The notes under the pieces are model-generated. The model searched no databases. It saw only the letters and a list, made by a program, of their open reading frames with translations, and was not told where the DNA came from. Of a stretch of DNA of 64,000 nt, positions 16,803 to 57,315 are shown one piece after another. Positions within the stretch are counted from its first letter, which is position 1. Every line of letters begins with the position of its first letter. The position numbers were made by a program, and so were the translations under genes. Location of the stretch: NCBI GenBank assembly GCA_021805565.1, contig JAJZFA010000047.1, forward strand, positions 1 through 64,000. The letters are read 5' to 3'. The DNA is from Pseudomonadota bacterium (GTDB lineage Bacteria; Pseudomonadota; Alphaproteobacteria; Acetobacterales; Acetobacteraceae).

Positions 16803-16880
16803 GCTTAGGCCATGCCCTAAGCCTTTGTTTGAGCGGGCAGCTTTATCGGCGTGCTGATGCACATATGGCCGATGCTGCCC
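16803..16880 (-). repeat. Dispersed palindromic repeat, copy A
   Basis: Minus-strand reading gives GGGCAGC ATCGGC, then an inner GTGC-ATCA-GCAC, then GCCGAT AAA GCTGCCC (16835-16880), an extended hairpin starting on the base after the stop codon of the ABC binding protein. Downstream a second perfect hairpin (GCTTAGG / CCTAAGC, 16803-16822) follows after CTCAAACAAAGG. The same layout recurs at 37382, 37496, 49600, 53752 and, in a decayed form, 57258. Confidence 0.85.
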
Positions 16881-17996
16881 TTACTTACCCCAGATTTTCT
16901 TGTACGCGTCGCGATACCCATTTTGCGGATCGAAGATGTTCTGCGGCCCGCCGTCATGGTCGATATTCGCCTTCACAAACAAATGCGGCGGCGCAACATA
17001 CATGCTCGGTTTTGCCCCCGCGAACGCTCGGTTGAGTTCATCGACGATCTGCCAGCCATGCAGGCGTAACGGTTCGGCGACCGTCGCGGCCTGATATTCA
17101 CCAGTGCGGATGCGCTGAAACGCCGGTTCAGATCCGTCGCCCGCCGAAATCGCGTGCGGCGGCGCATCGCCCGCAACGCCGGCCGATTGCAGCGACGGCC
17201 CCATGAAGTCGAACGTCAGATCGTTGACCGACAGCGCATAGGTCCATTTCGCGCCATAGCGTTGCAGTAACGATGTGGTCAACTGCGGCATGCGATTGGC
17301 GGCATCGGCCAGCGGCGTGTCTTCCACACTGAGCACCGTACAGGTTTTGCAGGCCCTGATGACGGCCGCCATTTCATTCGATTTGGCGATGGCGATGGCA
17401 TAGGCGCTATCGGTGAACACGATGGCGCCAGCCTTGCCGTCCGACGCGGCCACCGCATACAGGCCGGCGGCCTTGGCCACCTGCAACGGGTCGGTGGTGA
17501 TGTTGGTGAACAGGCCGTACTGAGCGTTCGGTCCCGGCACCGCCGCCGCATGCCAGCCGACGACCTTGATTCCAGCCTTTTCGGCCTGTTCGGTGGCCGC
17601 CGCCTGTTCAGCCGCATCGATGGCATCCAGCACCAACCCATCGGCCTTCAGCGCGACGGCCTGTGCGATTCCAGCCGCACGGGCATTCACCGAACCCTGA
17701 CCGTCGATCGCCCGCACATCCCAGCCAATCGCCTTGGCGGCTTCCGCGATGCCTTCGCCCACGCCGCGCGCGCCGCCGTTGCGCTGGTCGGTGGAGACAT
17801 AGACAATCAGCTTGTGACCGGTTGCCTTCGGCCCCGTGGTCGGTCCGTCCCATGCCGTCACCGGCTGAGTAACCTTCTTGATATAATCCTTCGCGGCCTG
17901 GACCGTATCGTCGGCCCGGGCAGTACCGGCCACCGATAGCGCGAACAATCCGGCCGATGCCAGCAGCGCGGCCCTGGTCGATCGATGCGTGAACAT
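16881..17996 (-). CDS. Sugar-type ABC transporter substrate-binding protein
   Basis: A 371-residue periplasmic binding protein of the ribose/xylose-type (periplasmic binding protein 4) family. A Sec signal peptide covers residues 1-28 (MFTHRSTRAALLASAGLFAL..TARA|DD). The mature protein has the two-lobe pattern with LIVYVSTDQRNGGARGVGEGI and DGLVLDAIDAAEQ. It is the last gene of a three-gene importer (ATPase, permease, binding protein), separated from the permease by about 150 bp. A palindromic repeat begins right after the stop codon and may stabilise or end the transcript. The ligand is not known; sugar or sugar-like is inferred from the family. Confidence 0.88.
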   Translation of the reverse strand: MFTHRSTRAALLASAGLFALSVAGTARADDTVQAAKDYIKKVTQPVTAWDGPTTGPKATGHKLIVYVSTDQRNGGARGVGEGIAEAAKAIGWDVRAIDGQGSVNARAAGIAQAVALKADGLVLDAIDAAEQAAATEQAEKAGIKVVGWHAAAVPGPNAQYGLFTNITTDPLQVAKAAGLYAVAASDGKAGAIVFTDSAYAIAIAKSNEMAAVIRACKTCTVLSVEDTPLADAANRMPQLTTSLLQRYGAKWTYALSVNDLTFDFMGPSLQSAGVAGDAPPHAISAGDGSEPAFQRIRTGEYQAATVAEPLRLHGWQIVDELNRAFAGAKPSMYVAPPHLFVKANIDHDGGPQNIFDPQNGYRDAYKKIWGK

Positions 17997-18146
17997 ATGT
18001 TTCTCTCCCTGTTTGCACAGCCGCTTCATCATCGGACCCGGCCGCTAGTCCGCACAGCGCGGAACACGTTTCGATTACAGCACTTTCAGCCAATTTTGGA
18101 AATATGCTATTCGTATCTTTCTATGGCAGTCGGCTTCCGTCCCGCC

Positions 18147-19181
18147 TCAGGAATCGCGCACGCGGCGCGCTGCCGACCGGCGGCGCTGGGCATAGCCGGC
18201 AATGCCGATCGCAACGATCAGGGTCGCGCCATTGAACAGCGGTTCCACGAAGAACGCGGCGCCGAACTGCTGGATGCCGGAAATGCCGACCGCCAGGATC
18301 AGCACGCCGACCAGCGTGCCCCACACATTCACGCGGCCCGGCTTGATCGTCGTGGACCCCAGAAACGCCCCGACCAGCGCCGGCAGCAGGTATTCCAGCC
18401 CGACACTGGCCTGCCCGATCCGCAGCTTGGACGCCAGCAGCACCCCGGTAAACGCGGTCAAGACGCCGGACGCCACAAACACGCCAATCACATAACCCCG
18501 CACCGGAATGCCGTTCAGCGCCGCGGCCTTGGGATTGGCGCCGATCGCATACAGATACCGGCCCAGCGGAAGGCGTTCGGTGACGATCCACAGTGCCACG
18601 GCGATGCCCAGAACGTAAAACGCGCTAATCGGCAAACCGAGAAACCAGGTCGCGTTGATCGCCAGAAACCCATGCGGCAACAGGCCCATGATCTGCCGTC
18701 CGCCGGTATGCCACATGGCGAACGAATACAGAATAGTTCCGGTCCCCAGTGTGGCAATGAAACTGTCGATCTGCGCGATTTCCACCAGCACCCCGTTGAC
18801 CAGGCCGGACAGCAATCCGCCCAGAAGTGTAACGGCCACCGCGGCCGGCCAGGAAAATCCGTAGGTTACCTGCAAGCTGATCGCCGCGACATGCCAAAGC
18901 ACAATGCCATAGCCCACCGTCAGATCGATCCGCCCGGCGATCATCGGCAGCATCGCCGACAGCGACAGCATGGCGATCACCGCTTTGTCGCTCAGGATGG
19001 ACCTTGCGTTCAGCGCCGTCGGGAATGTGTCCGGCAGCAGAATGGAAAACAGCACGATCAGTGCCACGGTCAGGATCGGCAGGCCATACACCGGCAACAG
19101 CCGGCGGATTCGTTCGCCCGTGCCCATTTGTGCGAGGTCCGACCGGGTGGGTTCTAGCGCGTTGGATTGCAAGGACTGCAT
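18147..19181 (-). CDS. Sugar-type ABC transporter permease
   Basis: A 344-residue inner-membrane permease of the RbsC/XylH family with about nine to ten hydrophobic segments. Typical family blocks include the central GRYLYAIGANPKAAALNGIPV region (the EAA-like cytoplasmic coupling loop, residues about 220-240) and LIGTFLG-type segments such as LLPALVGAFLGSTTI. It starts 3 bp after the ATPase gene stops and so is co-translated with it. It forms the membrane channel of the importer with the ATPase upstream and the binding protein downstream. Confidence 0.9.
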   Translation of the reverse strand: MQSLQSNALEPTRSDLAQMGTGERIRRLLPVYGLPILTVALIVLFSILLPDTFPTALNARSILSDKAVIAMLSLSAMLPMIAGRIDLTVGYGIVLWHVAAISLQVTYGFSWPAAVAVTLLGGLLSGLVNGVLVEIAQIDSFIATLGTGTILYSFAMWHTGGRQIMGLLPHGFLAINATWFLGLPISAFYVLGIAVALWIVTERLPLGRYLYAIGANPKAAALNGIPVRGYVIGVFVASGVLTAFTGVLLASKLRIGQASVGLEYLLPALVGAFLGSTTIKPGRVNVWGTLVGVLILAVGISGIQQFGAAFFVEPLFNGATLIVAIGIAGYAQRRRSAARRVRDS

Positions 19182-19184
19182 GGT

Positions 19185-20831
19185 TTATCCGTGAACAGGG
19201 TTGCGATCGGGCGCGGGTAAGCCGGAGGAAGGTGGCACGCCGGCGGATGCGGCGGCCAGCAGCGCCTGCACCGAAAGATCGGCCTCGGCCAGTTCGGCCA
19301 CCACCCGGCCGCGGTCGAACACCAGCGCCCGGTGGCAAACATTGGCCACTTCCTCGAAGTCGGTGGATACGATCAGGATGGCCGCACCGGCCTCCAGCGC
19401 GACGTTGAACAGGCGATAAATCTCCGCCTTGGCACCGACATCGACGCCGGCCGTCGGATCCTCGAAAATATAAAGCCTGCCGCGCAAATGCAGCCACCGC
19501 CCGACAACGACCTTTTGCTGATTGCCGCCGGACAGCGCCTCGATCGCCATGGCCGGGTCGTTGGGCCGCAAACCCACCTCGGCACCCAGGATCCGCGCCG
19601 CCTTTATTTCCTTGGCGGGCGCGATATAGCTGAACGGGTGCAGGCCGGCGGCCAGCGGGTTGATATACATGTTCTCGCGCACCGACAGCATCGGCACGAT
19701 CGATCCGGCGGTGCGATCGCCCCATACCAGTTCGATTCCCGCCGCCATGGCCGAGCGGGGCGAATCCGGCGCTACTGGCACGCCATCCAGCATTGCCCGG
19801 CCGCCGGTCGCCGGTTCCAGCCCGAACAGCGACCGCCCGACCAGATCCTGGCCCGCGCCCCGCAGACCCACCAGCCCGACGATCTCGCCCGCCCGGATTT
19901 TCGTACTGACCGGCCCGGCCCAGCCGATGCGATAGTCGTCCAGTTCCAGCAGAACCTTGCCCCGGCCTTCGACCGGACGGCGGAAGACCTGCGACGGTTC
20001 CCGCCCGACAATCAGCAGAATGGCTTCCTCCGCCGTGGTGGTCGCCACCGGCCGGTCGCCCACCACCCGGCCGTCCCGCATCACCACCATGCGATCGGCG
20101 ATTTCGAATACCTCATCCAACCGGTGCGACACGTAGATCATTGCCACACCCCGGTCGCGCAGCCGCCGCAGCGCGGTGAACAACCGGACGACCTCATCGG
20201 CGGGAAGGCTGGCGGTGGGTTCGTCCAGTACCAGCAGTTCCGCGTCGGCCGCCAGCGCCCGGCTGATCGCCACCAGCGATTTTTCGGTGCGGCTGAGCGA
20301 TTGCACGCGGGTATCGGGATCGATATCGGCGCCCAGTTGTGCCAGTGCCCGCGCCGCCCGTTCGCGCGCCGCCGTCCAGTTCACCAGCCCCATCCGGCGG
20401 GGATACCCGAGTGCCAGGCAGATATTTTCGGCGACCGTCATCCATTCGATCAGCCCGAGGTCCTGATGAATGAACGCGATGGGCAGCCGCCGCAGCCCCT
20501 GTGTAACGTCCTGGCCGGCGAAATGGATACTGCCGGAATCCAGCACGACCACGCCGGCCAGCGACTTGATCAGCGTCGATTTACCCGCCCCGTTCTCCCC
20601 CAACAGCGCAACGATCTCCGCCCGGTCCACCCGCATGCCGACAGAATCGAGCGCTCGGGTACCGCCGAATTGCTTGCAGGCGCCGCGCACTTCCAAAAGC
20701 GGCGCCGCGCCGGCAAGCGGATGCGTATCGGTCGCGGCGGCAGTGCTGCTCACCTGATTCGTCTCCCATGCCGGCTTTCTGGTCCGCAGCGTCGATGCGC
20801 GCGGCCGAAACCAGCCGATGTCAGCAGACAT
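19185..20831 (-). CDS. Sugar-type ABC transporter ATP-binding protein (two nucleotide-binding domains)
   Basis: A 548-residue double-domain ATPase of the RbsA/XylG type. The first domain has Walker A GENGAGKST and Walker B LLVLDEPTAS, with the signature LSRTEKSLVAISRAL. In the second domain the Walker A is replaced by GLRGAGQDLVG, as usual for this family, while LSGGNQQKVVVGRWL and FEDPTAGVDVG are present. The ATG at 20831 is preferred to a TTG at 20843. It is the first gene of the importer and sits 54 bp downstream of a MetX-like hydrolase gene, so all four genes may share a transcript. Confidence 0.92.
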   Translation of the reverse strand: MSADIGWFRPRASTLRTRKPAWETNQVSSTAAATDTHPLAGAAPLLEVRGACKQFGGTRALDSVGMRVDRAEIVALLGENGAGKSTLIKSLAGVVVLDSGSIHFAGQDVTQGLRRLPIAFIHQDLGLIEWMTVAENICLALGYPRRMGLVNWTAARERAARALAQLGADIDPDTRVQSLSRTEKSLVAISRALAADAELLVLDEPTASLPADEVVRLFTALRRLRDRGVAMIYVSHRLDEVFEIADRMVVMRDGRVVGDRPVATTTAEEAILLIVGREPSQVFRRPVEGRGKVLLELDDYRIGWAGPVSTKIRAGEIVGLVGLRGAGQDLVGRSLFGLEPATGGRAMLDGVPVAPDSPRSAMAAGIELVWGDRTAGSIVPMLSVRENMYINPLAAGLHPFSYIAPAKEIKAARILGAEVGLRPNDPAMAIEALSGGNQQKVVVGRWLHLRGRLYIFEDPTAGVDVGAKAEIYRLFNVALEAGAAILIVSTDFEEVANVCHRALVFDRGRVVAELAEADLSVQALLAAASAGVPPSSGLPAPDRNPVHG

Positions 20832-20885
20832 GACAATGCGCAACGACGCAACCGTTTTTGCCGAACCCGGGGACTCGGGCGGGGC

Positions 20886-21923
20886 TTACGGCGTCTTTGC
20901 CTCCAGCCGGGCGATGAAGGCGCGCAATGCCGGCGCCCATTTGGCCGCGTCGGCGCCGGACGCCAGATGGCCGTGGTCGCTGTCGATTTCGAAATAATCG
21001 GCGTCCACCCCGGCGTCCCGCAGCCCGGCCATGACCCCAGGTGCCAGCGTCGGCGGAAACAGCAAGTCCGTGCGCGACAGCACATACAGCACGGGCACCC
21101 GGATCCGGCCGAAATCTTTCGCCACGTCGTACGTCGCCATCGCCGCGCCAAGAATAAACAGCGAGTTCGCATCGAACACATTTGCCCAGTCCGAGGCGAT
21201 GCGCCGCAGTGCCGCGTCGCGCGCGGCCGGGTCGGGGAATTCGACCGCCAGACTCTCGGCCAGGCCATAGCGGGTCAGTGTCTCCACCCGCAACGCGGTC
21301 AGCGTTTCTTGCACGCCGCCGTTGTCGTAATAATCGCCGCCGTTCCAGTTCGGGTCTTGTTCGAACCGCTGCCGCAGCGTTGCCTCGCGATCCGATTCCG
21401 GCGGCAGCGGCGAGGTGATCACCGGCACCGCGCCGTCCATGAAATCGGGGAACGTCACCGCCCACTGGAAGGCCTGGAACCCGCCATAAGACGGGCCGAC
21501 CACGGCGCGCAGATGGGTCACGCCCAGATGGTCCAGCAGGCGCTTTTGCGCGGTAACGATGTCGGCGACCGATATGCGGGGGAACGTCGATCCATACCGC
21601 TGGCCGGTGCGGGGATCGATGGACGCGGCGTTGGTGGAACCGAAGCTGGAACCAAGCATGTTGGAGCAGACGACGAAGTATTTGTCGGTGTCGATCGGTG
21701 CGCCGGGGCCGACCAGGGTACTCCAGGCCCCTTCGGACGACGCCACGCTGGGTTCGATCATGCGCGGCCCGCTGGTGTAGCCGTGGGTGACCAGGATCGC
21801 GTTGCGGCCATCGGGCGCCAGACGGCCGCGCGCGACATAGGCCAGTGTGACCTCCGGCAGCGTGCCGCCACCGGTAAGCCGCAGGTTCTGGAAGGTAAAA
21901 CTGTCGTGGACGATGCCGGGCAC
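20886..21923 (-). CDS. Homoserine O-acetyltransferase-like alpha/beta hydrolase (MetX family)
   Basis: A 345-residue MetX-family alpha/beta-fold protein. The nucleophile elbow GPSYGGFQAFQWA, preceded by HLRAVVGPS, carries the Ser near residue 143. The acid is likely the Asp in VLSRTDLLFPP and the His in DSDHGHLASG. Family blocks such as VTHGYTSGP and CSNMLGSSFGSTN are present. Members of the family include homoserine or serine acyltransferases and unrelated hydrolases, so the acceptor cannot be stated. Located upstream of an ABC importer on the same strand, it may process the imported compound rather than make methionine. Confidence 0.8.
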   Translation of the reverse strand: MPGIVHDSFTFQNLRLTGGGTLPEVTLAYVARGRLAPDGRNAILVTHGYTSGPRMIEPSVASSEGAWSTLVGPGAPIDTDKYFVVCSNMLGSSFGSTNAASIDPRTGQRYGSTFPRISVADIVTAQKRLLDHLGVTHLRAVVGPSYGGFQAFQWAVTFPDFMDGAVPVITSPLPPESDREATLRQRFEQDPNWNGGDYYDNGGVQETLTALRVETLTRYGLAESLAVEFPDPAARDAALRRIASDWANVFDANSLFILGAAMATYDVAKDFGRIRVPVLYVLSRTDLLFPPTLAPGVMAGLRDAGVDADYFEIDSDHGHLASGADAAKWAPALRAFIARLEAKTP

Positions 21924-22014
21924 GATAGACTCCTCTCACTTGTTCGGCACAGGTTGCCACCGGCGGCGGTTGCGTGCGAATCAGCGCTGCATCGAGGGCG
22001 AGCGAGGGGACACA

Positions 22015-22557
22015 ATGAAGCACCCGACCGGCACACTGGTCTGTCTGACCGCGCTGACGCTGGCGACGGGGATCGCCCCGCCGGCGCGGGCGGCGGACCT
22101 GACGGTGACCATGTTGAAGGCTACGCAGGATGGAACCGGCGCGACGCTGGGCACGATCGTTGTCAGCACATCGGACGCCGGGGCCGCTTTCAAGCTGAAT
22201 TTGCACGGGCTGCCGCCTGGACCTCACGGGTTCATCGTGCATTCCAACGCCAATTGCAGCCCAACTTTTCTGAACGGCGTGCGGATTCCGGCGGGTGCCG
22301 CGGGCGGGCCGCTCGATCCGGATGAAACGTATAAGCATGCCGGTCCGGCGGGGGACGGTTACCTCGGCGATCTGCCGGTATTGACCGTGTCTGCCGACGG
22401 GACCGCGACGGAAACGGTGGTCGCACCGCGCATCAAGGATCTGGCGATTTTGAAGGGTCACGCCCTGATTATCCATATCGGCGGCGACACCTACAGCGAC
22501 TCGCCCAGCCTGATGGGCGGTTCGGGTGGGCGCCTGGCCTGCGGCCTGGTGGAGTGA
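22015..22557 (+). CDS. Cu/Zn superoxide dismutase-like protein lacking several metal ligands
   Basis: A 180-residue exported protein with a signal peptide (residues 1-27, cleaved near PARA|AD) and the SodC fold: GPHGFIVHSNANC, LDPDETYKH, GYLGDLPVL and GHALIIHIGGDTYSD. In active SodC the Cu and Zn sites need His at positions corresponding to 74, 99 and 116. Here these are Ile (FIVH), Pro (GGPLDP) and Tyr (GYLGDL). H76, H108, D119, H154 and the disulfide cysteines C81 and C176 remain. Canonical Cu/Zn catalysis is therefore unlikely. The stop is 5 bp before the next start, so it is co-transcribed with the luciferase-family oxidoreductase. Confidence 0.88.
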   Translation: MKHPTGTLVCLTALTLATGIAPPARAADLTVTMLKATQDGTGATLGTIVVSTSDAGAAFKLNLHGLPPGPHGFIVHSNANCSPTFLNGVRIPAGAAGGPLDPDETYKHAGPAGDGYLGDLPVLTVSADGTATETVVAPRIKDLAILKGHALIIHIGGDTYSDSPSLMGGSGGRLACGLVE

Positions 22558-22562
22558 AAGCC

Positions 22563-23630: not shown

Positions 23631-23639
23631 CGGCGGCAG

Positions 23640-23659
23640 CGGCCATAACATCATGGCCG
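23640..23659. terminator. Hairpin between convergent genes
   Basis: CGGCCAT (23640-23646) pairs with ATGGCCG (23653-23659) around a 6-nt loop, in the short gap between convergent stops. No U run follows, so it may act as a pause or end signal on both strands but is not a classical intrinsic terminator. Confidence 0.4.
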
Positions 23660-23667
23660 GACAGGCC

Positions 23668-24777: not shown

Positions 24778-24806
24778 GGTCGGCGGCCTATACAGGGCGG
24801 GCGGCG

Positions 24807-24870
24807 CCCGCGCCACAGGTCCCGCGCCATGGGGCCCGCGCCACACGGCCCGCGCCATTGGGGGGGGGGT
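24807..24870. repeat. 14-bp tandem repeat x4 followed by a G10 tract
   Basis: Four head-to-tail 14-bp units starting CCCGCGCCA occur at 24807, 24821, 24835 and 24849, followed by ten G residues at 24860-24869. They lie between the divergent starts of the glycosyltransferase (24777) and the slipin gene (25005), which is promoter territory. Such tracts mutate by slippage and could vary expression of a neighbour. Confidence 0.85.
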
Positions 24871-25914: not shown

Positions 25915-25920
25915 CCTGAC

Positions 25921-26003
25921 CGCAGACCGCGCTTAGGCGCACTGCTTTCTTGGACGTTTCCTCCCTAAACTTCGGCGGTGCCAAAAGCACCGCCGTTTTT
26001 TTT
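25921..26003 (+). ncRNA. MmgR (alpha-r8)-like small RNA
   Basis: The intergenic region ends in a strong intrinsic terminator (CGGCGGTGC / GCACCGCCG plus eight T). Just before it is TTTCCTCCCT (25957-25966), the ten-base motif that I recall as invariant in the alphaproteobacterial alpha-r8 family, whose Sinorhizobium meliloti member MmgR limits polyhydroxybutyrate storage and phasin expression. From the predicted promoter the RNA would be about 80 nt, near the 77 nt of MmgR. The CCUCCC sequence could pair with ribosome-binding sites. No coding frame of quality exists here. The family assignment is from memory and by eye. Confidence 0.62.
25973..26003 (+). terminator. Rho-independent terminator of the sRNA
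   Basis: CGGCGGTGC (25973-25981) and GCACCGCCG (25987-25995) form a perfect 9-bp GC-rich stem with a CAAAA loop, followed by eight T residues (25996-26003). It is the clearest intrinsic terminator in the window and directed to the plus strand. DNA from 26004 to 26134 holds no further feature I can support. Confidence 0.92.
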
Positions 26004-26134
26004 GAATTCAGGAGAAAGGTCGTCCCGGCAGGCCCGTGGCCGGCAGAATGCCGAACCGGGTCATGGCTCGCGCATCGTCCGGCTGACGTCGCTGTTACGT
26101 GGTTGTCAGCCGGTTTGGCCGGTGTGCGCCCTGG

Positions 26135-37377: not shown

Positions 37378-37610
37378 CTAAGGGCGGCATCGGCCATAAG
37401 TGCGTCAGCACGCCGATAAAGCTGCCCGGTCAAACAAAGACCTGGGATATGCCCGGCGCCGCGATCCGAAGCGATCGTGGCCGGGCGTGGACTAAGGGCG
37501 GCATCGGCCATAAATGCGTCAGCACGCCGATAAAGCTGACCGGTCAAACAAAGACCTGGGACATGCCCGGCGCCGCGATGCGAAGCGATCGTGGCCGGGC
37601 GTGGACTAAG
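37378..37610 (+). repeat. 114-bp tandem duplication of the dispersed palindromic repeat (copies B and C)
   Basis: The unit starting CTAAGGGCGGCATCGG (37378) repeats at 37492 and begins a third time at 37606, a spacing of exactly 114 bp. Each unit contains the dispersed hairpin (GGGCGGC ATCGGC ... GCCGAT AAA GCTGCCC, 37382-37427 and 37496-37541) and a second strong hairpin (GCCCGGC...GCCGGGC, 37451-37486). The array fills the 316-bp gap between the adaptor and first pump genes. No protein-coding evidence is seen here. Confidence 0.92.
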
Positions 37611-40600: not shown

Positions 40601-40780
40601 GGCACCGGGTCGGAATTGCGGCGTCCGCTGGGTGTCGCCATCGTTGGCGGCCTGCTGGTCAGTCAGGTCCTGACGCTGTTCACGACACCGGTCATCTATC
40701 TGATGTTCGACCGGTTGTCGCGGCGCCTGCGCCGGCAAACCCCGCCGGCCGCGGTGGCATCGGACGGACGTCCGTCATGA
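37664..40780 (+). CDS. RND efflux inner-membrane pump (MdtB-like)
   Basis: A 1038-residue RND transporter of the hydrophobe/amphiphile (HAE1) type, usual length. It has 12 predicted membrane segments with two large periplasmic loops. The proton-relay Asp pair is in [17 protein letters not shown] in the fourth segment. An early [24 protein letters not shown] and a late [22 protein letters not shown] are typical. It forms, probably as a heterotrimer with the next pump as in MdtBC, the drug-proton antiporter. Its last codon and stop lie inside the first copy of a 27-bp repeat. Confidence 0.94.
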
Positions 40781-40866
40781 TGAAAATCGGACGGACGTCC
40801 GTCATGATGAAAATCGGGCGGACGTCCGTCATGATGAAAATCGGACGGGAGTCCGTCATGATGGGA
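40759..40866 (+). repeat. 27-bp tandem repeat x4 between the pump genes
   Basis: Four consecutive 27-bp units begin ATCGG[A/G]CGG and contain the palindrome GACGGACGTCCGTC followed by ATGATGAAA. They begin at 40759, 40786, 40813 and 40840; the fourth is diverged. The first unit includes the stop codon of the MdtB-like gene (TGA at 40778-40780). They separate two pump genes that in related operons usually overlap or lie a few bases apart. Confidence 0.95.
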
Positions 40867-49187: not shown

Positions 49188-49215
49188 TACAGCCGGGGCC
49201 GCGGCGCGACGAAAT

Positions 49216-49539
49216 TTACCGCGCTACGGATTTCGGTGTCGGCACGATCCGCGTCACGACGATAGCGGAACGATCGAGATACTCCGGCACGCGCGGTGCG
49301 ATCTGGGTTTTCCAATGGTCGGACTCGTACACCGCGGCATACAGCGCGACCCGCTGTTCCTCGCTATCGAAACGGCGGAGCCAGACATAGACCGAAGCAT
49401 CGGTTTCGCCTTGAAAGCTGCCGGTAATCACCATGCCCTTGGCCACCTGGAATGGAATAATCTCTTCTTCCATCATTCTGATCCAGCCGGCCATCTGTCC
49501 GGGCAGCACCTTGTATTGGCGTAGTTCGTAGAATGCCAT
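49216..49539 (-). CDS. NIPSNAP family protein
   Basis: A 107-residue protein with the NIPSNAP ferredoxin-like fold: ELRQYKVLPGQMAGWIRMMEEEIIPF at the N-terminus and YVWLRRFDSEEQRVALYAAVYESDHW in the middle. Members of the family act as small dimers of unclear role, often near catabolic genes. The gene stands alone next to hemN, on the opposite strand and convergent with it. Nothing suggests truncation. Confidence 0.85.
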   Translation of the reverse strand: MAFYELRQYKVLPGQMAGWIRMMEEEIIPFQVAKGMVITGSFQGETDASVYVWLRRFDSEEQRVALYAAVYESDHWKTQIAPRVPEYLDRSAIVVTRIVPTPKSVAR

Positions 49540-49599
49540 CTGTTCCCTCCTGATTGAACGTTGCTCAGCAAGCCACGGCTGGCGGAACGACGCAACTCA

Positions 49600-49644
49600 G
49601 GCAACGCTGGCGGATAAGTGCGTCAGCACGCCAGCAAAGTTGCC
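49600..49644 (+). repeat. Dispersed palindromic repeat, covarying copy D
   Basis: GGCAAC GCTGGC pairs with GCCAGC AAA GTTGCC around GTGC-GTCA-GCAC. Compared with copy A the arms changed together (GGCAGC/GCTGCC to GGCAAC/GTTGCC, and ATCGGC/GCCGAT to GCTGGC/GCCAGC) while pairing was kept. It lies in the gap between the NIPSNAP and AsmA genes. Confidence 0.8.
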
Positions 49645-49710
49645 GTGCAACACATCGGCTTAGGGATTGCCCGACGCTGCTGCTTTTAGCGATTATTGTC
49701 GGGCAATTCC

Positions 49711-51714
49711 TCAGTGCGCCGGGGCAGGGCCTTTCGATGCTGGCGGCAGTGCCTGTCCGCCCGCCTGTGCGCGGGCGCGCGCCAGCAGCACGCCGCACCG
49801 AGCATCCGCCGCTTCCGACGTGCCGAACTGGATGGTCGGCAGTATCGCCAGCGGCAGGAACAGCGCCCCCAAACCGACGGCCGCCCCCAGCCGGGCGACA
49901 GCTTCGGCGCCAGGACGAATGGACGGATCCTTGAACGTGCCGCCGATACTCAGCCGGGTCGGCAACGAACCGACCGAGAAATGCTTGGAATCGGTCTTCA
50001 GGCCCAGATCGATCGTTTCCTTCGACAAATTAACGTTGCCAACGACATTGACGATCGCCTCTCCGGTATCCAGCGTCACCGCGTCGAAATCCAGCACGCC
50101 GCGCCGCAGCGCCATGTCCCCGACGAAACACTGCACCGGTGTCTTGTCTGGAATCCCCAGCGCCGACAGCAGGGCTTTGCCAAACTGCAATCCCGTAAGG
50201 TCGATCAGCACCGCCGACAGGTCGCCGCCAGCCATTGCCATCTTCACCTCGCCGTTGCCGTTCGCCATCAGCGACGCCATCGAGTTGCCGGTTGCATCGA
50301 TCGCACCCACGCCACTAACCGATCCGGCGCCCTGAAACGTATGCGTCGCCGCCATCATCCGGGCCAGATCGAGGTTCTGCATCCGCAAATCGACCTTGGC
50401 ATGGACGTTCTTACCGCTTTCCGGGACGAGTTCGACATGGGCGGTCAGGTGCCCCTTGCCGATTGCGAAACCGATCGGATGCAGCGTGATTCGTCCGCCC
50501 ACGACATCCATGGCAACCGTTACATCGTCCAGCGGCATATCGCGCCCCGCGATAGCAGCGGCGTGGTAGTGCAGGTGGATATCGGCCCAATCCAGTTTCG
50601 GCACATCGATCGGCGTGTCTGGAAACAGCTTCGGGCTGGCGCGCGCGGCGGCCGCTGCCTCGCGCTCCTTGGGCGTGGCGTTGGCGGTTGTGGCCCGTCC
50701 CGGCGTGCCGCCGATGAATCCGTTCAGGTCCGGCAAATCGACCCGCCTGGATCGAAGGTCCATCGTCACCAGCGGCTTCGATTGGCCGTGTTCGGTCGAT
50801 CCGCCCGGTTGTTCTTCTATCGTGCCGCCAATGTCGGAACTACCCAGCCGGCCCTCGAAATCCTCGAAACGGATTTTGTCGAGACCGTCCAGTATCAGCT
50901 TGCCCGTAATATCGTAGGCCGGCGTTTGCGGGATCGGAAACCCGACGAATCGATCCAGCAACGCCATATCCGGACCGCTGAGTTTAAGCCTTACATCCGC
51001 ACCTTGAAGCGCCAGCGGGTCGCGCAGCGTGCCGTTGAGCGCGATCCGGGTGGGCCCGTTCACCAGGTCCAGTTTTATCGGCCATGGGTGCGCCGCGTCG
51101 CGCAGCGACAATAACGCCCCCCCGACAAGCGTGCCGGCGACCGGTTGATCCGCGTAACGGCCTTTGGCATCGACGACGATTTGCGCCGCATCGCCTTCGC
51201 CCCTGGTCTCGATCCGGGCGTTGAAATCGGTTTTCAGGCGGGAAATCGCGACATGGGCGTCGCTGTCGGCAATTTGGACGTTGCCGATTTTGACCGGGGT
51301 TCCGCCTTTGCTTCCGCTGGCCGGGAATTTGTAATTCGCCGCGCCGCTGGGCGTCTCGGCCACCAGGATTTTCGCGCCGGCGGCGCCGATCATGGGCAGA
51401 ACCAGGCCGCGACCGCGGATATAGTCCCAGGCGCCGGCCTGAATCTTCAATGTCTGGATCGTCGCGAACTTAGCATCGGTGGTGGGCCAGTCCGGCGGGT
51501 TGGCGATCGTCACATCGGCGGCATCGACCTCGACAATGCGGCCAAGATGCACCTGCAAATGCCCGATCGTCACCGCCCGTCCTAACGCCGCGGAGGCTTT
51601 GGATTCGACGATCGGGATAAACCAGTCCCAGTTCCAGAATACGGCCAGCGCGCCGATCAAAAGAACGGGAACACCTGTCCAGGCGAGGCGTCGCAGGGCG
51701 CGGGAACGTATCAT
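49711..51714 (-). CDS. AsmA family protein
   Basis: A 667-residue AsmA-type protein with one N-terminal membrane anchor (residues 8-27, AWTGVPVLLIGALAVFWNW) and a long periplasmic beta-rich body. The family segments GRAVTIGHLQVHLG and VDAADVTIANPPDW lie at the start, and the C-terminal AsmA-like half contains GNGEVKMAMAGGDLSAVLIDLTGLQFGKALLSALG. Such proteins are thought to bridge the periplasm and move phospholipids or shape the outer membrane. The gene is single and ends in a Pro/Ala-rich tail. Confidence 0.87.
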   Translation of the reverse strand: MIRSRALRRLAWTGVPVLLIGALAVFWNWDWFIPIVESKASAALGRAVTIGHLQVHLGRIVEVDAADVTIANPPDWPTTDAKFATIQTLKIQAGAWDYIRGRGLVLPMIGAAGAKILVAETPSGAANYKFPASGSKGGTPVKIGNVQIADSDAHVAISRLKTDFNARIETRGEGDAAQIVVDAKGRYADQPVAGTLVGGALLSLRDAAHPWPIKLDLVNGPTRIALNGTLRDPLALQGADVRLKLSGPDMALLDRFVGFPIPQTPAYDITGKLILDGLDKIRFEDFEGRLGSSDIGGTIEEQPGGSTEHGQSKPLVTMDLRSRRVDLPDLNGFIGGTPGRATTANATPKEREAAAAARASPKLFPDTPIDVPKLDWADIHLHYHAAAIAGRDMPLDDVTVAMDVVGGRITLHPIGFAIGKGHLTAHVELVPESGKNVHAKVDLRMQNLDLARMMAATHTFQGAGSVSGVGAIDATGNSMASLMANGNGEVKMAMAGGDLSAVLIDLTGLQFGKALLSALGIPDKTPVQCFVGDMALRRGVLDFDAVTLDTGEAIVNVVGNVNLSKETIDLGLKTDSKHFSVGSLPTRLSIGGTFKDPSIRPGAEAVARLGAAVGLGALFLPLAILPTIQFGTSEAADARCGVLLARARAQAGGQALPPASKGPAPAH

Positions 51715-51821
51715 CCGGTCGCAAACGCGCGACCGAAGGCGCGGTTGTCCCGGCTGGATATCAATTTAACGAAACCCAGCCGGGACCATCGGACATTACC
51801 GTCAGGGTGGCCCGCGTCCGG

Positions 51822-52487
51822 TCAGCCCAGATGCCTGGCGAACAGTTCCAGTGTCCGCTTTTGCGCCAGGTCATAGTCCGGTGCGCTATAACTGCCGCGT
51901 TCGTCGCAACCGAACCCGTGTTGTGCGCCGTCGTACACAAAGACCTCCACCTTGGGCTGCGCCGCACGCACCGCATCCACATCGGTCATCGGAATCGACG
52001 CATCCTTCTCGCCGAAATGCATCTGCACCGGGCAATGCGCGTGCTCGTTTTTCGTGCCGGGTATCCCGCCGCCGTACCAGCAGGACGAGGCCGCGAACCG
52101 CGTCGTGCGCGTAGCGCCCCACCAGGCGACCGTGCCGCCAAAGCAATACCCAACGATGCCCAGTTTCTTGCCAGCCAGATGGGCCGCCGCGGCTTCGATG
52201 TCTTGCATGACATCGGCATCGGATAGTTTCATGCGCAGATCGCGGCCCTTGCCGATGTCGTCCGGCGTATAGCCCAGTTCCACGTCGCGCTGCGTTCGGT
52301 CGAACAGGGCCGGCGCCACCACCGCATAACCCAAGGCGGCGAAGCGATCCGCCATGTCGCGGATATGCGGGTTGACGCCGAAGATCTCCTGCACCACCAC
52401 CACGCCCTTCGTGGCGTCGTCCGGCCCCGCCACATAAGCCGAAAAGCTGAAGCCGTCCGCGGCCTTTAACTGGATTGTCTTGCCCAT
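51822..52487 (-). CDS. Dienelactone hydrolase family protein
   Basis: A 221-residue alpha/beta hydrolase of the dienelactone hydrolase family. The Cys nucleophile C115 is in VGYCFGG, the Asp D162 in FGEKDASIP and the His H190 in GAQHGFG; Glu34 in VVQEIFG matches the residue that holds the Cys in its resting form. The MGK start at 52487 gives the family length; the frame continues upstream without similarity. Dienelactone hydrolase activity is a family inference; other small lactones or esters are possible. Confidence 0.9.
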   Translation of the reverse strand: MGKTIQLKAADGFSFSAYVAGPDDATKGVVVVQEIFGVNPHIRDMADRFAALGYAVVAPALFDRTQRDVELGYTPDDIGKGRDLRMKLSDADVMQDIEAAAAHLAGKKLGIVGYCFGGTVAWWGATRTTRFAASSCWYGGGIPGTKNEHAHCPVQMHFGEKDASIPMTDVDAVRAAQPKVEVFVYDGAQHGFGCDERGSYSAPDYDLAQKRTLELFARHLG

Positions 52488-52678
52488 TTGAATCTCTGTC
52501 TCCCGAACCATAACAGCGGAGGCGGATAAAAGGAGGAGATCGCGCCGCCCGTCAACCAAGCGTCTGCGTCCCTGTTCGGCTTGCGGGCCCGGCGGTTCGA
52601 TGGTCAAGTTCCAGCCTGCGATCCTGGAAGGCAACAGGCGACGGTATCGCCGCCCAGGTTCTAGGGAGACAAACGCAT

Positions 52679-53752
52679 ATGACCCCGATCGGCGATTCGA
52701 AGAGCCCGTACACCGGCCTGATCCATCGTAACGATGCCGCCTTGAAGGCCTGGCTGGCGCGGCGTCCGGCGGAGACCGCGCTGGAACCCGATTTGCCGAT
52801 TATCGATCCGCATCATCATTTCTGGGATACGCCGCATCGCGGCACCTACTTCCTTCCCGACCTGCTCGCGGATATCGGCGGCGGGCATAAAATCGTTTCG
52901 ACTGTGTTCATGGAATGCCAGGCGATGTACCGCAAACATGGCCCGGCCGAGATGGCGCCGGTCGGCGAGGTCGAATTCGTCAACGGCATCGCCGCGATGA
53001 GCGCATCCGGCCATTACGGTCCCTGCCGCGTGGCCGAGGCGATTATCGGTTACGCCGACCTTCGCCTTGGCAGCCGGGTGCGGGAGGTTTTACAGGCCGA
53101 GATCGCCGCCGGTAACGGCCGCTTTCGCGGCATTCGCATGGGCGTGGCGTGGGACGGCGATTTATCGGTCGGCAAATACGCATCCCGAACCGTTCCGCCG
53201 CAACTGGTTCACGACCCTGTGTTCCGCCAGGGTTTCGCCGAACTGGCGAAGCTGGGGCTGACGTTCGAATCCTGGCAGTATCATCCGCAACTATCCGGTG
53301 CGATCGACCTCGCCAGGGCGTTTCCGGACACGACGATCGTTCTGGATCATGTCGGCGGCGTGCTTGGAGTCGGGTCTTATTCCGGACGCCGCCAGGAGAT
53401 CCTCCAGACATGGCGCAAGGATATCCAGGAACTCGCGAAATGCCCCAACGTGAACGTCAAGCTTGGCGGTTGCGGCATGACATCGTTCGGGTTCGAATTC
53501 ATCGACCGCGACGTGCCGCCGGGTTCGGACGATCTCGCCGCCGCATGGCGCCAGTATATCGAACCCTGCATCGAAGCCTTCGGCGCCGATCGCTGCATGT
53601 TCGAAAGTAATTTTCCGCCCGACAAGCAATCCGGCGGCTACACCGAATTATGGAACGCCTTCAAACGCATCGCCTCCGGTGCCTCGGCGACCGAAAAAAG
53701 GGCGCTGTTCAGTGGCACTGCCGCGCGGGTTTACGGTATGATCCCCCCTTAG
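52679..53752 (+). CDS. TIM-barrel amidohydrolase (amidohydrolase_2 / PDC lactonase-like)
   Basis: A 357-residue amidohydrolase-2 protein with the metal-binding start IIDPHHHFWD (residues about 41-50), related to 2-pyrone-4,6-dicarboxylate lactonase and similar lactonases or decarboxylases. Later metal or substrate residues lie in LDHVGG (about 222) and in FESNFPPD near the C-terminus. It is divergent from the dienelactone hydrolase and converges with an enoyl-CoA hydratase gene. The stop codon TAG is the first base of palindromic repeat copy E. Confidence 0.87.
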   Translation: MTPIGDSKSPYTGLIHRNDAALKAWLARRPAETALEPDLPIIDPHHHFWDTPHRGTYFLPDLLADIGGGHKIVSTVFMECQAMYRKHGPAEMAPVGEVEFVNGIAAMSASGHYGPCRVAEAIIGYADLRLGSRVREVLQAEIAAGNGRFRGIRMGVAWDGDLSVGKYASRTVPPQLVHDPVFRQGFAELAKLGLTFESWQYHPQLSGAIDLARAFPDTTIVLDHVGGVLGVGSYSGRRQEILQTWRKDIQELAKCPNVNVKLGGCGMTSFGFEFIDRDVPPGSDDLAAAWRQYIEPCIEAFGADRCMFESNFPPDKQSGGYTELWNAFKRIASGASATEKRALFSGTAARVYGMIPP

Positions 53753-53860
53753 GGCAGCATCGGCGGCAATGGCGTCGCCGCGCCGATAAAGCTGCCCGCT
53801 CAGACAAAGGGCCAGGGCAGCATCGGCGACAACGGCGTCGGCACGCTCGGTCCTGTCGGA
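53752..53860 (+). repeat. Dispersed palindromic repeat, copy E plus partial copy
   Basis: A full hairpin GGGCAGC ATCGGC ... GCCGAT AAA GCTGCCC (53752-53797) begins on the last base of the amidohydrolase stop codon. A second, partial copy starts at 53815 (GGGCAGCATCGGCGAC). A further small hairpin CCTGTC/GACAGG lies near 53852-53864. The region separates convergent genes and could stop transcription. Confidence 0.85.
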
Positions 53861-53878
53861 CAGGCAACAGCCGCCAGT

Positions 53879-54733
53879 TCAGTCAGGATCGTGTCCGCGC
53901 ACCGCGGCGTACCCGCTTCCAAACGCCGAATCGCGCTTCTGGAAGGCGTGCTTCACCCCGTGTTCGCGCATCGTCGCCTTGAACGCCATCGCCATGGGCG
54001 CCAAATGGCCACGCGCGTCGATCTCGGCGCCGATGCGCTGAAGCGTGCGGGCACCCATCAGTTCCAGGCCCAGATTGACCATGCGCTTGTTCGCCGACAG
54101 CAGATGCGGGTCTACCAGGCCCATGCGGGCCGCCAACCGCATGACCTCGGTTTCCAACTCCGCCGCAGGATACGATTTCAACGCCAGCCCGATCTCCGCC
54201 GCGTCCTTGCCGGTGAGTGAATCGCCTGTCAGCAGCAGGCGTTTCGCCCATTGCGGGCCGCAGTGATACAGCCACATGCTGCCCGGCGGCGTGCCCAGGT
54301 CGCGCACCGGAGGAAAGCCGATACGGGCGTCGTCGGCAACCAGGATCATATCGCAAAACCACGCCAGTTCCGTTCCGATCCCGATGCAAGTCCCGTGCAC
54401 CTGCGCAATGACCGGCTTGTGCATATCGAACAGTTCGATGCGCAGTTTTTGCCCTTGCTCCAGCCGCCACACGTCGTCGTCGATCTGCGAGCGCCCGCGA
54501 TAATCGGGTCCGCGACCCGAGGAAAATTCGTTCAGATCGGCGCCGGCACAAAAATGCGGACCGGCGCCACGCAGCACGACGCAATGAACCGGGTCGTATT
54601 CGTCCGCCTCCTTCAGCGCCGCATTCAGTTCGCGCAGCAGTTTCCCGCTCAGGGCGTTGCGCCGTTCCGGGCGGTTCAGTGTGATAATGCAGGTGGTGCC
54701 CTTCACCTCGTAGGCAATTTGCTCGAAGTCCAT
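53879..54733 (-). CDS. Enoyl-CoA hydratase/isomerase family protein
   Basis: A 284-residue crotonase-fold protein. The oxyanion-hole segments are HFCAGADLNEF (residues 64-74) and HGTCIGIGTELAWFCDMILVADDARIGFP (about 120-150). Residues expected to carry the acid-base function lie around ELAW and PPVRDLGTPPG, though the latter differs from the usual GLIPGG pattern, so classical hydration is not certain. The start at 54733 was chosen because the next in-frame start overlaps the gene upstream. Its CoA ester substrate is unknown. Confidence 0.87.
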   Translation of the reverse strand: MDFEQIAYEVKGTTCIITLNRPERRNALSGKLLRELNAALKEADEYDPVHCVVLRGAGPHFCAGADLNEFSSGRGPDYRGRSQIDDDVWRLEQGQKLRIELFDMHKPVIAQVHGTCIGIGTELAWFCDMILVADDARIGFPPVRDLGTPPGSMWLYHCGPQWAKRLLLTGDSLTGKDAAEIGLALKSYPAAELETEVMRLAARMGLVDPHLLSANKRMVNLGLELMGARTLQRIGAEIDARGHLAPMAMAFKATMREHGVKHAFQKRDSAFGSGYAAVRGHDPD

Positions 54734-54838
54734 CGCATCCTCCTGTGTGGCCTCGATTGCAGTCAACCAATGGACGGAGTTGGGTGCAAGAGCATGGTTC
54801 CGCTTCGCGGTTGCCCGGAACCGCGCTACCCCGGCGTT

Positions 54839-55408
54839 ATGCCGCGCATTCACATCCTGGGGGCCTCCGGCTCCGGCACCTCGACCCTCGGCGCGGCCCT
54901 CGCACGGCGGCTGGGGGTGACCCATACCGATGCCGACAGTCTTTACTGGATGCCGACCGACCCCCGCTTCACGACCCCGCGCGCCGCCGCGGATCGGCAG
55001 ACATTGCTGATGCGAACGTTGCCCGTCGCCGGCCACTGGGTCTTCTCCGGCGCCGCCACGAAATGGGCAGCGCCGCTGGAACCGTTCTACGATCTGGTGG
55101 TGTTCCTGCGCCTTGATTCCACCGAACGCATGATCCGGCTGCGGCGGCGGGAGGCCGATCGCTACGGCGCCCGGATCCTGCCAGGGGGCGACATGGCCGC
55201 GCTCAACGCCGCCTTTATCGCATGGGCGGAGTCCTACGACACCGCCGGGTCGCTGCGCCGGGGCCTGCTAACGCACGAAGCCTGGCTGATCGATCAGCCA
55301 GCGCCGGTGCTACGCCTGGATTCCGTTCGGCCGGTCGCGGATCTCGTCACCGAGATCGTTCTGTGGTTCGATCCGCTGCATTCGCGCCGGAAGGAAACCG
55401 ATGGCTGA
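54839..55408 (+). CDS. P-loop NTPase, adenylate kinase-like, with non-canonical Walker A
   Basis: A 189-residue small P-loop protein of the kind annotated as adenylate-kinase-like or topology modulation protein. The nucleotide loop is GASGSGTST at residues 8-16, where Thr14 takes the place of the usual Walker A lysine. RMIRLRRREADRYGARI is likely the lid. Such a Lys-less loop is, as I recall, found in a subset of this family. The stop overlaps the next gene start by 8 bp, so the pair is coupled. The function is not known. Confidence 0.78.
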   Translation: MPRIHILGASGSGTSTLGAALARRLGVTHTDADSLYWMPTDPRFTTPRAAADRQTLLMRTLPVAGHWVFSGAATKWAAPLEPFYDLVVFLRLDSTERMIRLRRREADRYGARILPGGDMAALNAAFIAWAESYDTAGSLRRGLLTHEAWLIDQPAPVLRLDSVRPVADLVTEIVLWFDPLHSRRKETDG

Positions 55409-56588
55409 TATTCTGATCGCCGGCGCCGGACTCGGCGGACTGACCAGCGCATTGGCGCTTATTCAGCGTGGCCACCGGGTGCGCGTGTTCGAACAGGCTA
55501 ACGAACTGCGGGAAACCGGGGCCGGCGTACAACTCGGCGCCAACGGCACCCGCATCCTGATCGCGCTCGGGCTGGAACCGGCCATGCGCCAGATCGTCTG
55601 CGCCGCCACCGCCAAGGAAATCCGGTTGGGCACCACCGGACAAATCTGGCCGGTGTTCGACCTGGGCGAAAGTTCGGTCGAACGCTTCGGCGCCCCATAC
55701 TGGATGGTTCATCGCGGCGATTTTCATGCGGTTCTGCTGGACGCGGTGCGTACCGCGGCACCCGACGCGATCCGCACTGGATGCGGATGCGTGGGGTTCA
55801 GCCAGACCGGCGACACCGCGATCCTGCATTTGGCCAATGGCGATCGTATCGATGGCGATGTTTTGATCGGCGCGGACGGTGTGCATTCCCAGATACGCCA
55901 GCAAATGTCCGGCGCTGGACCAGCCTGCTTCACCGGCCTTATGGCCTGGCGCGGGCTGGTCCCGATGGATCGCCTTGCGCCGCATCAACGCCGTTCGGTC
56001 GGGGCGAACTGGCTGGGCGCCGGCGGGCATGTCGTGACCTATCCCATCCGTCGCGGCGCGTTGCTGAATTTCGTCGGCGTGGTGGAGCGCGACGACTGGC
56101 ATGTGGAATCGTGGAACGAACCGGGCAGTCACGCGGAATGCCTGCGCGATCTGGCGAACTGGCATGCCGACGTAAAGGCCGTTATTCGAGCGATCGATAC
56201 GCCATACAAATGGGCATTGCTGGGGCGCGAACCGCTGACCGCGTACGTCCAAAACCGGGTTTGCCTGATCGGCGACGCCGCCCACCCAACCTTGCCGTTC
56301 CTGGCACAAGGCGCAAACATGGCGCTGGAAGATGCCATGGTGATCGCGCGCTGCCTCGATCTGTCCAGCGATCCCGGCGAAGCACTCCGCCGCTACCAGA
56401 ACGCACGCCTCGATCGGACCGCCGCCATCGTGCGCGGGTCGTCCGATAATACCAGGCGCTTTCATAACCCCGCACTTGCCAGCGCCGAAGGCGCCGCGGC
56501 GTACGTGGAACGGGAATTCCGGCCAGAAAAAATTCGGCAGCGTTACGACTGGCTGTATGAATACGACGCGCTGACCGTCCCGGTATAA
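55401..56588 (+). CDS. FAD-dependent monooxygenase (salicylate hydroxylase-like)
   Basis: A 395-residue class A flavoprotein monooxygenase of the salicylate / 3-hydroxybenzoate hydroxylase group. FAD-binding blocks are GAGLGGLTSALAL (residues 7-19), VLIGADGVHSQIR (about 155) and GDAAHPTLPFLAQGANMALEDA (about 290). It should hydroxylate an aromatic acid using NAD(P)H and O2, with the ring identity unknown. It overlaps the P-loop gene by 8 bp. It keeps the DG and GD motifs, so it is probably active. Confidence 0.9.
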   Translation: MADILIAGAGLGGLTSALALIQRGHRVRVFEQANELRETGAGVQLGANGTRILIALGLEPAMRQIVCAATAKEIRLGTTGQIWPVFDLGESSVERFGAPYWMVHRGDFHAVLLDAVRTAAPDAIRTGCGCVGFSQTGDTAILHLANGDRIDGDVLIGADGVHSQIRQQMSGAGPACFTGLMAWRGLVPMDRLAPHQRRSVGANWLGAGGHVVTYPIRRGALLNFVGVVERDDWHVESWNEPGSHAECLRDLANWHADVKAVIRAIDTPYKWALLGREPLTAYVQNRVCLIGDAAHPTLPFLAQGANMALEDAMVIARCLDLSSDPGEALRRYQNARLDRTAAIVRGSSDNTRRFHNPALASAEGAAAYVEREFRPEKIRQRYDWLYEYDALTVPV

Positions 56589-56830
56589 ACCCCGATCCCA
56601 AGCGGCCTGGGCGGACACGGCACCGCTCCGTCTTGGGCTAATCCGCATGTCATCGTCCCCGGGGGCCGGTTTGCGATTTTGCTACCTATGCGCTGTGCGG
56701 GATGCAGCCATGCCGACGCTGGCAGTCCGGGGAGAAAACCGGCTAAAAAACGCCTCATTCGTAGTTCATGGTCACTGCATTGCGTCATTGCGCGTAATGT
56801 TTTGGCGCACCATAGTGGCTGGAGGTTGTT

Positions 56831-56989
56831 ATGCCTATGTCCCGGAAGGAAACGCGCGGCGGCAAGGCTTTCGCGTTCCCACTGTTCGGGATCGCGCTTT
56901 TGCTCGCGTTCTATTGGGTGCTGGCAGATTGGCACAGCATGCCGGCGCTGATCGGTGGCGCGCTCGCCGCGGTACACTGGCCGCTCTGA
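56831..56989 (+). CDS. Small membrane protein, 52 residues
   Basis: A short gene that begins with MPMSRKETRGGKAF and has a single hydrophobic helix (FPLFGIALLLAFYWVLADW) followed by SMPALIGGALAAVHWPL. A strong Shine-Dalgarno GGAGG lies 6 bp before the ATG, which supports translation. The helix orientation with Arg/Lys at the N-terminus predicts a cytoplasmic start. No family is recognised. The DNA between 56589 and 56830 has no other supported gene. Confidence 0.6.
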   Translation: MPMSRKETRGGKAFAFPLFGIALLLAFYWVLADWHSMPALIGGALAAVHWPL

Positions 56990-57257
56990 GCAACCGCGTC
57001 CGGTCGGATTGGCCTGACCGTCCCAGCCGCACGATCGGATGATTGGTATCGCCGCGGTTCGGCCGGTAACGCCGATTTGCATCCGCGCGGCAGAGCCAAC
57101 CCCCCGATAGCGATCCGCGGCGCGGAGCAACAAGTGTGGTTCCCGGCGCCTATTGCCGTCCCCCTTGGGCCAGTGCATTCTCATAACGAATAACGATTCG
57201 GTTTAACCGGCCCCGTTTGGCGGCAAATGATCGGAAGACATCGCCGTTGCTGTTCCA

Positions 57258-57315
57258 AGGCAGTATCGGCAATGGGCATCGATAAGGTCGCCGCTCTGAC
57301 AAAAGCCTGGGATAT
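57258..57315 (+). repeat. Dispersed palindromic repeat, decayed copy F
   Basis: AAGGCAGTATCGGC, then CATCGATAAGGTCGCC and GCTCTGACAAAAGCCTGGG follow the order of the other copies but the stems have lost several pairs. It lies in the 397-bp gap (56990-57386) before the MFS gene. The rest of that gap holds no feature that I can support. Confidence 0.6.

Follow-up and report, generated by a model that had tools for sequence, protein, structure and literature searches.

A 111-bp two-hairpin mobile repeat flanked by TNA triplets in an Acetobacteraceae genome

The first 64,000 nucleotides of contig JAJZFA010000047.1 (GenBank assembly GCA_021805565.1, a Pseudomonadota bacterium of the Acetobacteraceae), referred to here as the window, contain a dispersed family of palindromic repeats, three of which touch the stop codon of a gene. 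An earlier note, made from the sequence alone, had read these repeats either as selected RNA structures or as mobile elements of the REP/BIME type. Why should a folded sequence come to lie so exactly at the ends of genes, and is it there as a signal in RNA or as mobile DNA? The repeats are 111-bp two-hairpin mobile elements with a TNA triplet on each side (N being any base).

Inspection of copies together with their flanks gives the layout TNA - H1 - linker - TTA - H2 - TNA, with 111 bp between the outer triplets. The first hairpin, H1, combines two stems, one of 6-7 pairs and one of 6, with a 4-pair hairpin whose loop is GTCA, and carries three unpaired A on its 3' side (the AAA bulge). An A-rich linker follows, with an internal TTA at its end, ahead of H2, which is a separate palindrome having its own inverted ends. 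The layout proposed earlier was correct for the H1 half, but the unit is longer than had been supposed: the tail CTCAAACAAAG-CCTGGGA behind the palindrome is the linker and the beginning of H2. The copies in the window, all of them at the places where they had been reported, and the genes that adjoin them are as follows.

16805..16883, minus strand: copy A; element 16808-16880, 73 bp, with the centre of H2 deleted
16881-16883 and 16805-16807: TAA duplications of copy A (minus strand), the first being the stop codon of the gene 16881-18032
16881..18032, minus strand: Peripla_BP_4 (periplasmic-binding-protein) gene; its TAA stop is the left duplication of copy A
37379..37495, plus strand: copy B; element 37382-37492, 111 bp; flanked on each side by TAA, of which the right one is common to copy C
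37493..37609, plus strand: copy C; element 37496-37606, 111 bp; TAA at 37493-37495 and 37607-37609
49597..49713, plus strand: copy D (class D, see below); element 49600-49710; TCA duplications at 49597-49599 and 49711-49713
49600-49644, 49645-49659, 49660-49662 and 49663-49710: H1, linker, internal TTA and H2 of copy D
49711..51714, minus strand: AsmA-family (AsmA-like) gene; its TGA stop is the right-hand duplication (plus-strand TCA) of copy D
52679-53752: amidohydrolase gene at copy E, terminated by TAG at 53750-53752
53749..53881, plus strand: copy E; TTA at 53749-53751, with H1 and linker behind it reaching to about 53811
53812-53881: degraded second H1 after copy E (E 0.02)
57255..57345, plus strand: copy F, decayed; inner hairpin of H1 lost, H2 remnant recognised by eye

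Copies B and C are a tandem pair with one common TAA, C being 96% identical to B. Copies A and E start at a stop codon, as had been noticed; copy D touches one as well, at its other end, where it lies convergent with the AsmA-like gene. No right end of H2 was recognised at copy E and no target duplication at the decayed copy F. A covariance model (A2, built from 31 copies) scores the copies at E-values of 7.1e-30 (A), 2.5e-29 (B), 4.5e-26 (C), 6.1e-20 (D), 3.2e-16 (E) and 4e-4 (F), copies A-E being among its building rows and only F independent of it.

The family is not a set of a few random duplicates. An 18-base core, allowed two mismatches or fewer, was found at 82 places, 47 forward and 35 reverse, in the organism's own genome (G000; 4.49 Mb in 64 contigs), while the same core reversed as a control was found at none. 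Searched at E <= 0.01, model A2 lists at least 150 H1 matches there (151 at that threshold). Within the genus it matches 16 of 33 genomes, the own genome included, with 39 matches in G011, 23 in G016, 18 in G020 and 8 in G032; weak matches at five loci (L208-L212, in G019, G023, G018, G005 and G021) were judged by eye not to be elements, the second G019 match lying outside that inspection. All 27 G011 copies with both ends, and all five G020 copies examined, measure 111 bp. Nor do the repeats represent the edge of an insertion sequence (IS): their right ends, located by one exact pattern at 24 places in G000 and 32 in G011 (none in G020, whose right end differs), belong to the 111-bp unit, with H1 upstream in 24/24 and 31/32 cases, respectively, the one exception being truncated by the end of its contig.

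Two classes occur in the own genome, a varied class A (GGGCAGC...) and class D (GGCAACG...), which is presumably the younger because it is less diverged. In G016 the layout is the same by eye, with the stems replaced and the AAA bulge kept (GATAAAG). Further afield, an exact 23-base core gave one match in GTDB contigs (from which the own genome was possibly left out), in Acidiphilium sp. PA, where it belongs to one H1 copy without a clear H2. The own element had no match in a plasmid blast, and a linker pattern none in viral contigs. A strict linker pattern (ending in GAG) occurs in four of 190 alphaproteobacterial genomes, once in each and the own genome included, a result that does not support a wide spread across the class. 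Tandem arrays of H1 alone, with a period of about 63 bp, lie in G000 at C53:10067-10328, C58:252132-252330, C17:75161-75359, C24:101208-101343, C57:8185-8320 and C45:75803-76001; the first unit of an array has the normal start, and later units have an altered start particular to that array (e.g. CCGCAGC, GACCAGC, TCGCAGC). At four G011 loci (L044, L048, L050, L052) the 111-bp element has as its neighbour a sister family whose stems (ACCATGATCG...CGATCATGGT) are unrelated and whose linker is CTCAAACAAAGGCTTAG.

The mobility of the element, which the earlier note had suggested, is supported by its flanking triplets and by an empty site. For the triplets, the 150 own-genome matches were aligned to consensus units with the flanks masked, 106 being kept as full length and 44 dropped; nested copies enter this count as separate rows, and 26 of the 106 rows have an improbable unit length. 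TNA stands at both ends in 57 of the 106 rows, and in 47 of these 57 the middle base is the same (26.8 in shuffles, with 0 of 20000 reaching this value). The 80 rows with a proper unit (116-118 bp, duplications included) account for 56 of the TNA pairs and 46 of the identical triplets. In class D the middle bases are equal in 36 of 43 (19.8 shuffled; 0 of 20000), the pairs including TAA/TAA, TTA/TTA and TCA/TCA; C stands ahead of the left TNA in 33 of 48 class D copies and G behind the right one in 38 of 48. Among relatives, counted over fetched copies with both ends (27 of 39 matches in G011, where 28 were fetched and one of these was cut by a contig end; 5 of 18 in G020; 7 of 8 in G032), the triplets are identical in 26/27, 5/5 and 3/7, the remaining G011 copy having TAT/TAT. 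Pooled, this gives 34 of 39, against 17.7 in shuffles (0 of 20000). That a 3-bp TNA target duplication flanks the element is well supported.

Other IS-like sequences (L138, L139, L039, L041, L001, L040) start by eye at TTA or TAA, and those in the last five of these loci lie near repeat copies, with the ends TGTCCGTCTGAGAAC, TTTGACAGAGTCG and TTTGAGAAAATCAC; judged by sequence, several insertion sequences seem to share the TTA/TAA target with the repeat. In G000, C48:1-150 (L100) and the end of C23 (L069) hold one sequence, identical over the 110 bp compared and starting GGCAGCAATTCTCATTTTG, which interrupts H2 and in both cases sits at a contig end; it is probably an insertion sequence that targets the H2 hairpin.

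The empty site was sought at copy D, by comparison with 12 distinct gene ends of AsmA orthologues in the genus (lower-identity ones were left out, as were L182-L197, and L175/L198 counted once). None of the 12 has the element in the bases inspected past the stop codon. In the own genome the second TGA is followed by GTTGCGTC...GTGGCTTGCT; in 6 of the 12 orthologue ends GTTGC likewise follows at the end of the stop codon or no more than one base off, and a GTGGCTT-like block (ATGGCTT in one) stands about 20 bases further on, three of these six having TAG instead of TGA. The exact predicted empty site, TGAGTTGC, is read in two orthologues, those of G016 and G002, and alignment of occupied and empty sites thus shows 111 bp to have entered the stop codon of the AsmA-like gene and to have duplicated it. 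At copy A, three of four orthologues of the gene end in the same IWGK-TAA with no element behind (the fourth has IWGV-TGA), a comparison which shows this copy to sit at a pre-existing, conserved TAA stop.

How general the association with stop codons is was assessed with a home-made gene caller over 454 kb around the copies. A terminal triplet is the stop codon of a called gene in 40 of 150 copies, 27 at the left end and 13 at the right, which is an upper bound, as the caller may read a gene truncated by the element as ending there, and two cases were checked with orthologues. The offsets are 0 or -1 only, with no other value between -3 and 3, and two of the 150 copies fall within called genes. 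Across these 454 kb, 6.1% of non-genic TNA, 12.2% of CTNAG and 8.7% of CTWAG sites are at stops, so that there is some excess over background. The link with stop codons follows from the target, since one of the two strands of TNA reads TAA or TGA, while TTAG and CTAAG hold TAG.

The stems themselves appear to have been conserved as structure. Across its 31 rows, model A2 has 94.3% of H1 cells paired, and seven pairs are changed on both sides (1.5 in shuffles). A 20-row H1 alignment from eight genomes has 96.6% of cells paired and 28 double-changed cells against 9.0 shuffled; seven of its pairs are changed on both sides against 4.3 (8 of 500 shuffles reach 7), and sliding the pairing partner abolishes H1 pairing. 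These shuffles ignore relatedness and concern H1 pairs only, and are to be taken as evidence, not as a probability. The compensated changes in both arms of copy D, to which attention had been drawn, are real, and are common to a whole subfamily. Folding of three sequences as DNA and of another three as RNA gave the two arms each time, with z-scores of -3.5 to -5.1 (-4.2 to -5.1 as RNA). Thus the compensatory changes support covariation of the H1 stems across species, and with it the earlier suggestion that the structure is under selection. The terminal inverted repeats, by contrast, are weak: in six elements 4-6 of the first 12 positions match, and 8-10 of 20 (about 5 shuffled).

We consider it likely that the repeats are non-autonomous elements of two independent hairpins, resembling miniature inverted-repeat transposable elements (MITEs), which are mobilised in trans with duplication of TNA by an IS5-type DDE transposase. 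The IS1031 group of the IS5 family is described as favouring TNA and making 3-bp repeats (PMC12016507), and because the duplication found here matches that product, an IS1031-like, TNA-specific enzyme would be the most likely candidate. Such an enzyme would insert the element into TNA, often within CTNAG, and its staggered cut would duplicate the triplet. A stop codon would be a frequent and harmless target, as the duplication would restore it and leave the gene intact. Tandem pairs such as B and C would result from insertion into the TNA of an older copy rather than from recombination. Weak terminal repeats together with covarying stems suggest that folds are recognised; selection would then maintain the hairpins, since mobilisation requires the ends to fold or to be recognised, any influence on the 3' ends of mRNA being secondary.

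DUF4096, an IS4/5 transposase domain, matches in 5/5 genomes tested. A 300-aa IS5-family transposase frame in G011 is bracketed by two TTA triplets at a distance of 932 bp, and the terminal bases of this element match at 12 of 16 positions. A scan for TNA with terminal repeats, aimed at a parent element, took in the DUF4096 and DDE_Tnp_1 loci of G000 (11 in all) and, from G011, G016, G020 and G032, eight out of ten DUF4096 loci; it turned up only elements with other ends. By eye, the ends of an insertion sequence in L137 (GGGCCTGT) resemble the H2 start of G020, a likeness that is suggestive only.

Several observations weigh against this interpretation. The ends of the G011 IS5 element differ from those of the repeat, and a better pair (15/16, TTA/TAA) encloses it, so that its borders are uncertain; a search of the draft assemblies with one exact right-end pattern found no transposase-bearing element with the ends of the repeat. 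Terminal inverted repeats as weak as these are unusual for an IS5 substrate. Of the 58 class A rows, 21 have a right TNA and only 11 have identical triplets (10 among the 35 whose unit length is proper), and G016 copies resemble TA rather than TNA insertions by eye. Half of the AsmA orthologues differ in the bases past the stop, and several use another stop codon. Finally, further pair types in the 20-row alignment are not above shuffles (14 vs 13.4; 224 of 500).

An alternative is that the repeats are selected RNA elements, stabilisers of 3' untranslated regions or terminators that aid the upstream gene, whose past mobility is incidental. The covarying stems, the stable RNA folds and the 40 of 150 copies at stop codons are all features that such elements would have, but genes on either side are served, and the use of stop codons follows from TNA targeting. 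Orientation is also near background, with 64 co-directional, 35 convergent and 18 divergent among 117 copies, compared with 154/56/46 (33 of the 150 copies being at piece edges). In the window between 36500 and 54500 there are 23 terminator-like sites (12.8 expected), and of the copies there one has a weak site (49675-49691, in H2 of D) and B, C and E none. At gathering scores, Rfam matched no known RNA family at the copies. This explanation is unlikely.

It is also improbable that two smaller elements, H1 with the linker (60 bp) and H2 (48 bp), insert separately and target each other's TTA. The internal TTA ahead of H2, the inverted ends that H2 has of its own and the H1-only arrays are what such a scheme would produce. 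Nevertheless, the 27 G011 copies with both ends are all 111-bp composites, and H1 precedes practically every right end of the one type located by pattern in G000 and G011 (no model-based search for solitary H2 was made). The scheme is therefore weak as a present-day mechanism, although it may describe the origin of the element.

It is highly improbable that the repeats are of the REP/BIME type and owe their movement to a RAYT (Y1) transposase, for while they are many dispersed palindromes with bulged hairpins and CGTC in the H1 loop, in a genome with one Y1 transposase, and GTAG REP termini are reported to supply stop codons to flanking genes (PMC3733652), REPs are 20-40-bp palindromes with a GTAG or CGTC end tag, whereas here the unit is of 111 bp with two unlike arms, has CGTC in the loop only and not at an end, and shows a 3-bp target duplication and an empty site; moreover, the 3.36-kb locus of the sole Y1 match, a frame of 209 aa, contains no copy of the repeat, and the same source reports CGTC-tagged REPs to be missing in the Acetobacteraceae.

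What, then, is the non-autonomous two-hairpin element related to? No named family had been recognised for the sequence, but the architecture has a counterpart: by this standard, the closest described class appears to be the CIR/RIME-type alphaproteobacterial repeats. CIRs are the CcrM-associated intergenic repeats of Caulobacter (Chen and Shapiro 2003, via PMC2229807), and repeats of this type are reviewed as being of about 110 bp, with two arms and a linker (PMC2229807). The present element shares with them its length, its two hairpin arms and linker, and the lack of clear terminal inverted repeats. Its termini, which are TNA, mostly TAA or TTA, at both ends, and TA-like by eye in G016, may correspond to the TA termini of CIR. 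GANTC, which CIR-type repeats have in the loop of one arm, is found in the H2 arm in G011 (27/27), G020 (5/5) and G032 (7/7), and also in G031; unlike CIR, it is present in only 6 of the 106 full own-genome copies and was not seen by eye in the H2 arm in G001, G009 (2 copies) or G016 (2 looked at). A further difference is that a target duplication is demonstrated here, where for CIR the review enters a '?' (PMC2229807). A literature search, which did not extend to the original CIR paper, returned no report of a CIR/RIME target duplication or of this Acetobacteraceae element.

A plasmid repeat of the Rhizobiaceae invites comparison as well. It is perhaps RIME1. The query of 106 bases, which matched 455 of 72,556 plasmid records (10 copies were fetched), was chosen after the likeness of the linkers had been noticed, so that the linker match is not independent. 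The repeat likewise has the order arm-linker-arm and an unpaired, A-rich 3' bulge in its first arm, and its linker is AAACAAAGACTTA within one mismatch in 9 of 10 copies (0.005 of 10 expected from shuffles); the motif occurs with the same tolerance in 33 of 150 own-genome copies. Seven of the 10 copies have GANTC in their second arm, and at four of the eight with annotation (L234, L235, L236, L240) the element marks the end of a gene. Its stem sequences differ, however, and its termini look like TA. The likeness is supporting, but not independent, evidence.

Other mobile repeats are more distant. The element is like a MITE in being short and non-autonomous and in having a target site duplication, but it lacks terminal inverted repeats at least 10 bp long; it can be called MITE-like, though not a classical MITE, because its terminal inverted repeats are too weak. 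RUP, Correia/NEMIS, ERIC and BOX are also short non-coding mobile repeats with stable folds, and BOX is modular, as the present element is. RUP, Correia and ERIC differ in having terminal inverted repeats and an end-to-end stem instead of two arms (PMC2229807, Table 1). IS1031-group elements share the TNA target and the 3-bp repeat, but carry a transposase and terminal inverted repeats. The element is best regarded as a mobile two-arm repeat of the CIR/MITE kind, not a REP, with a mechanism that we infer to be of IS5 type.

It is possible, though unlikely, that CIR, RIME and the present elements form one ancient alphaproteobacterial superfamily, in which a transposase acting on folded ends, coupling to CcrM and near-neutral insertion at stop codons would be combined. 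If this were so, the transposase would recognise folded ends and not terminal inverted repeats, so that stems could drift while covarying; GANTC in H2 would couple mobility to replication through CcrM methylation; and the targeting of stop codons would make insertion nearly neutral. A parallel is provided by Dam, which couples the mobility of IS10 to replication.

The window has some further features. A sequence at 9963-10935 with the ends CAGGCTGCTGAAAA and the flanks CTA and TTA, whose plus-strand frame 10237-10857 matches the transposase domain DUF772, is a probable decayed insertion sequence. Between AcrB-type genes, at the end of one and ahead of the next, about four 27-bp units (ATCGGACGGACGTCCGTCATGATGAAA) stand head to tail at 40759-40863, each with a small palindrome. 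Two tandem M20 peptidase genes of 404 aa each (14251-15465 and 15487-16701) have a 300-base stretch of 80% identity. An mmgR/suhB small RNA (RF00519) lies at 25937-26010 and a TPP riboswitch (RF00059) at 6503-6629.

Whether bacterial repeats of this class are mobile had been an open question. The findings suggest a mechanism for them, and the exact ends, the TNA duplication and the empty site make the mobility of this architecture directly testable. Stems that covary while termini change call into question recognition through terminal repeats for all MITE-like elements. Landing on stop codons lets a mobile element spread through a genome dense with genes while doing little harm, and hairpins beside stop codons need not be terminators.

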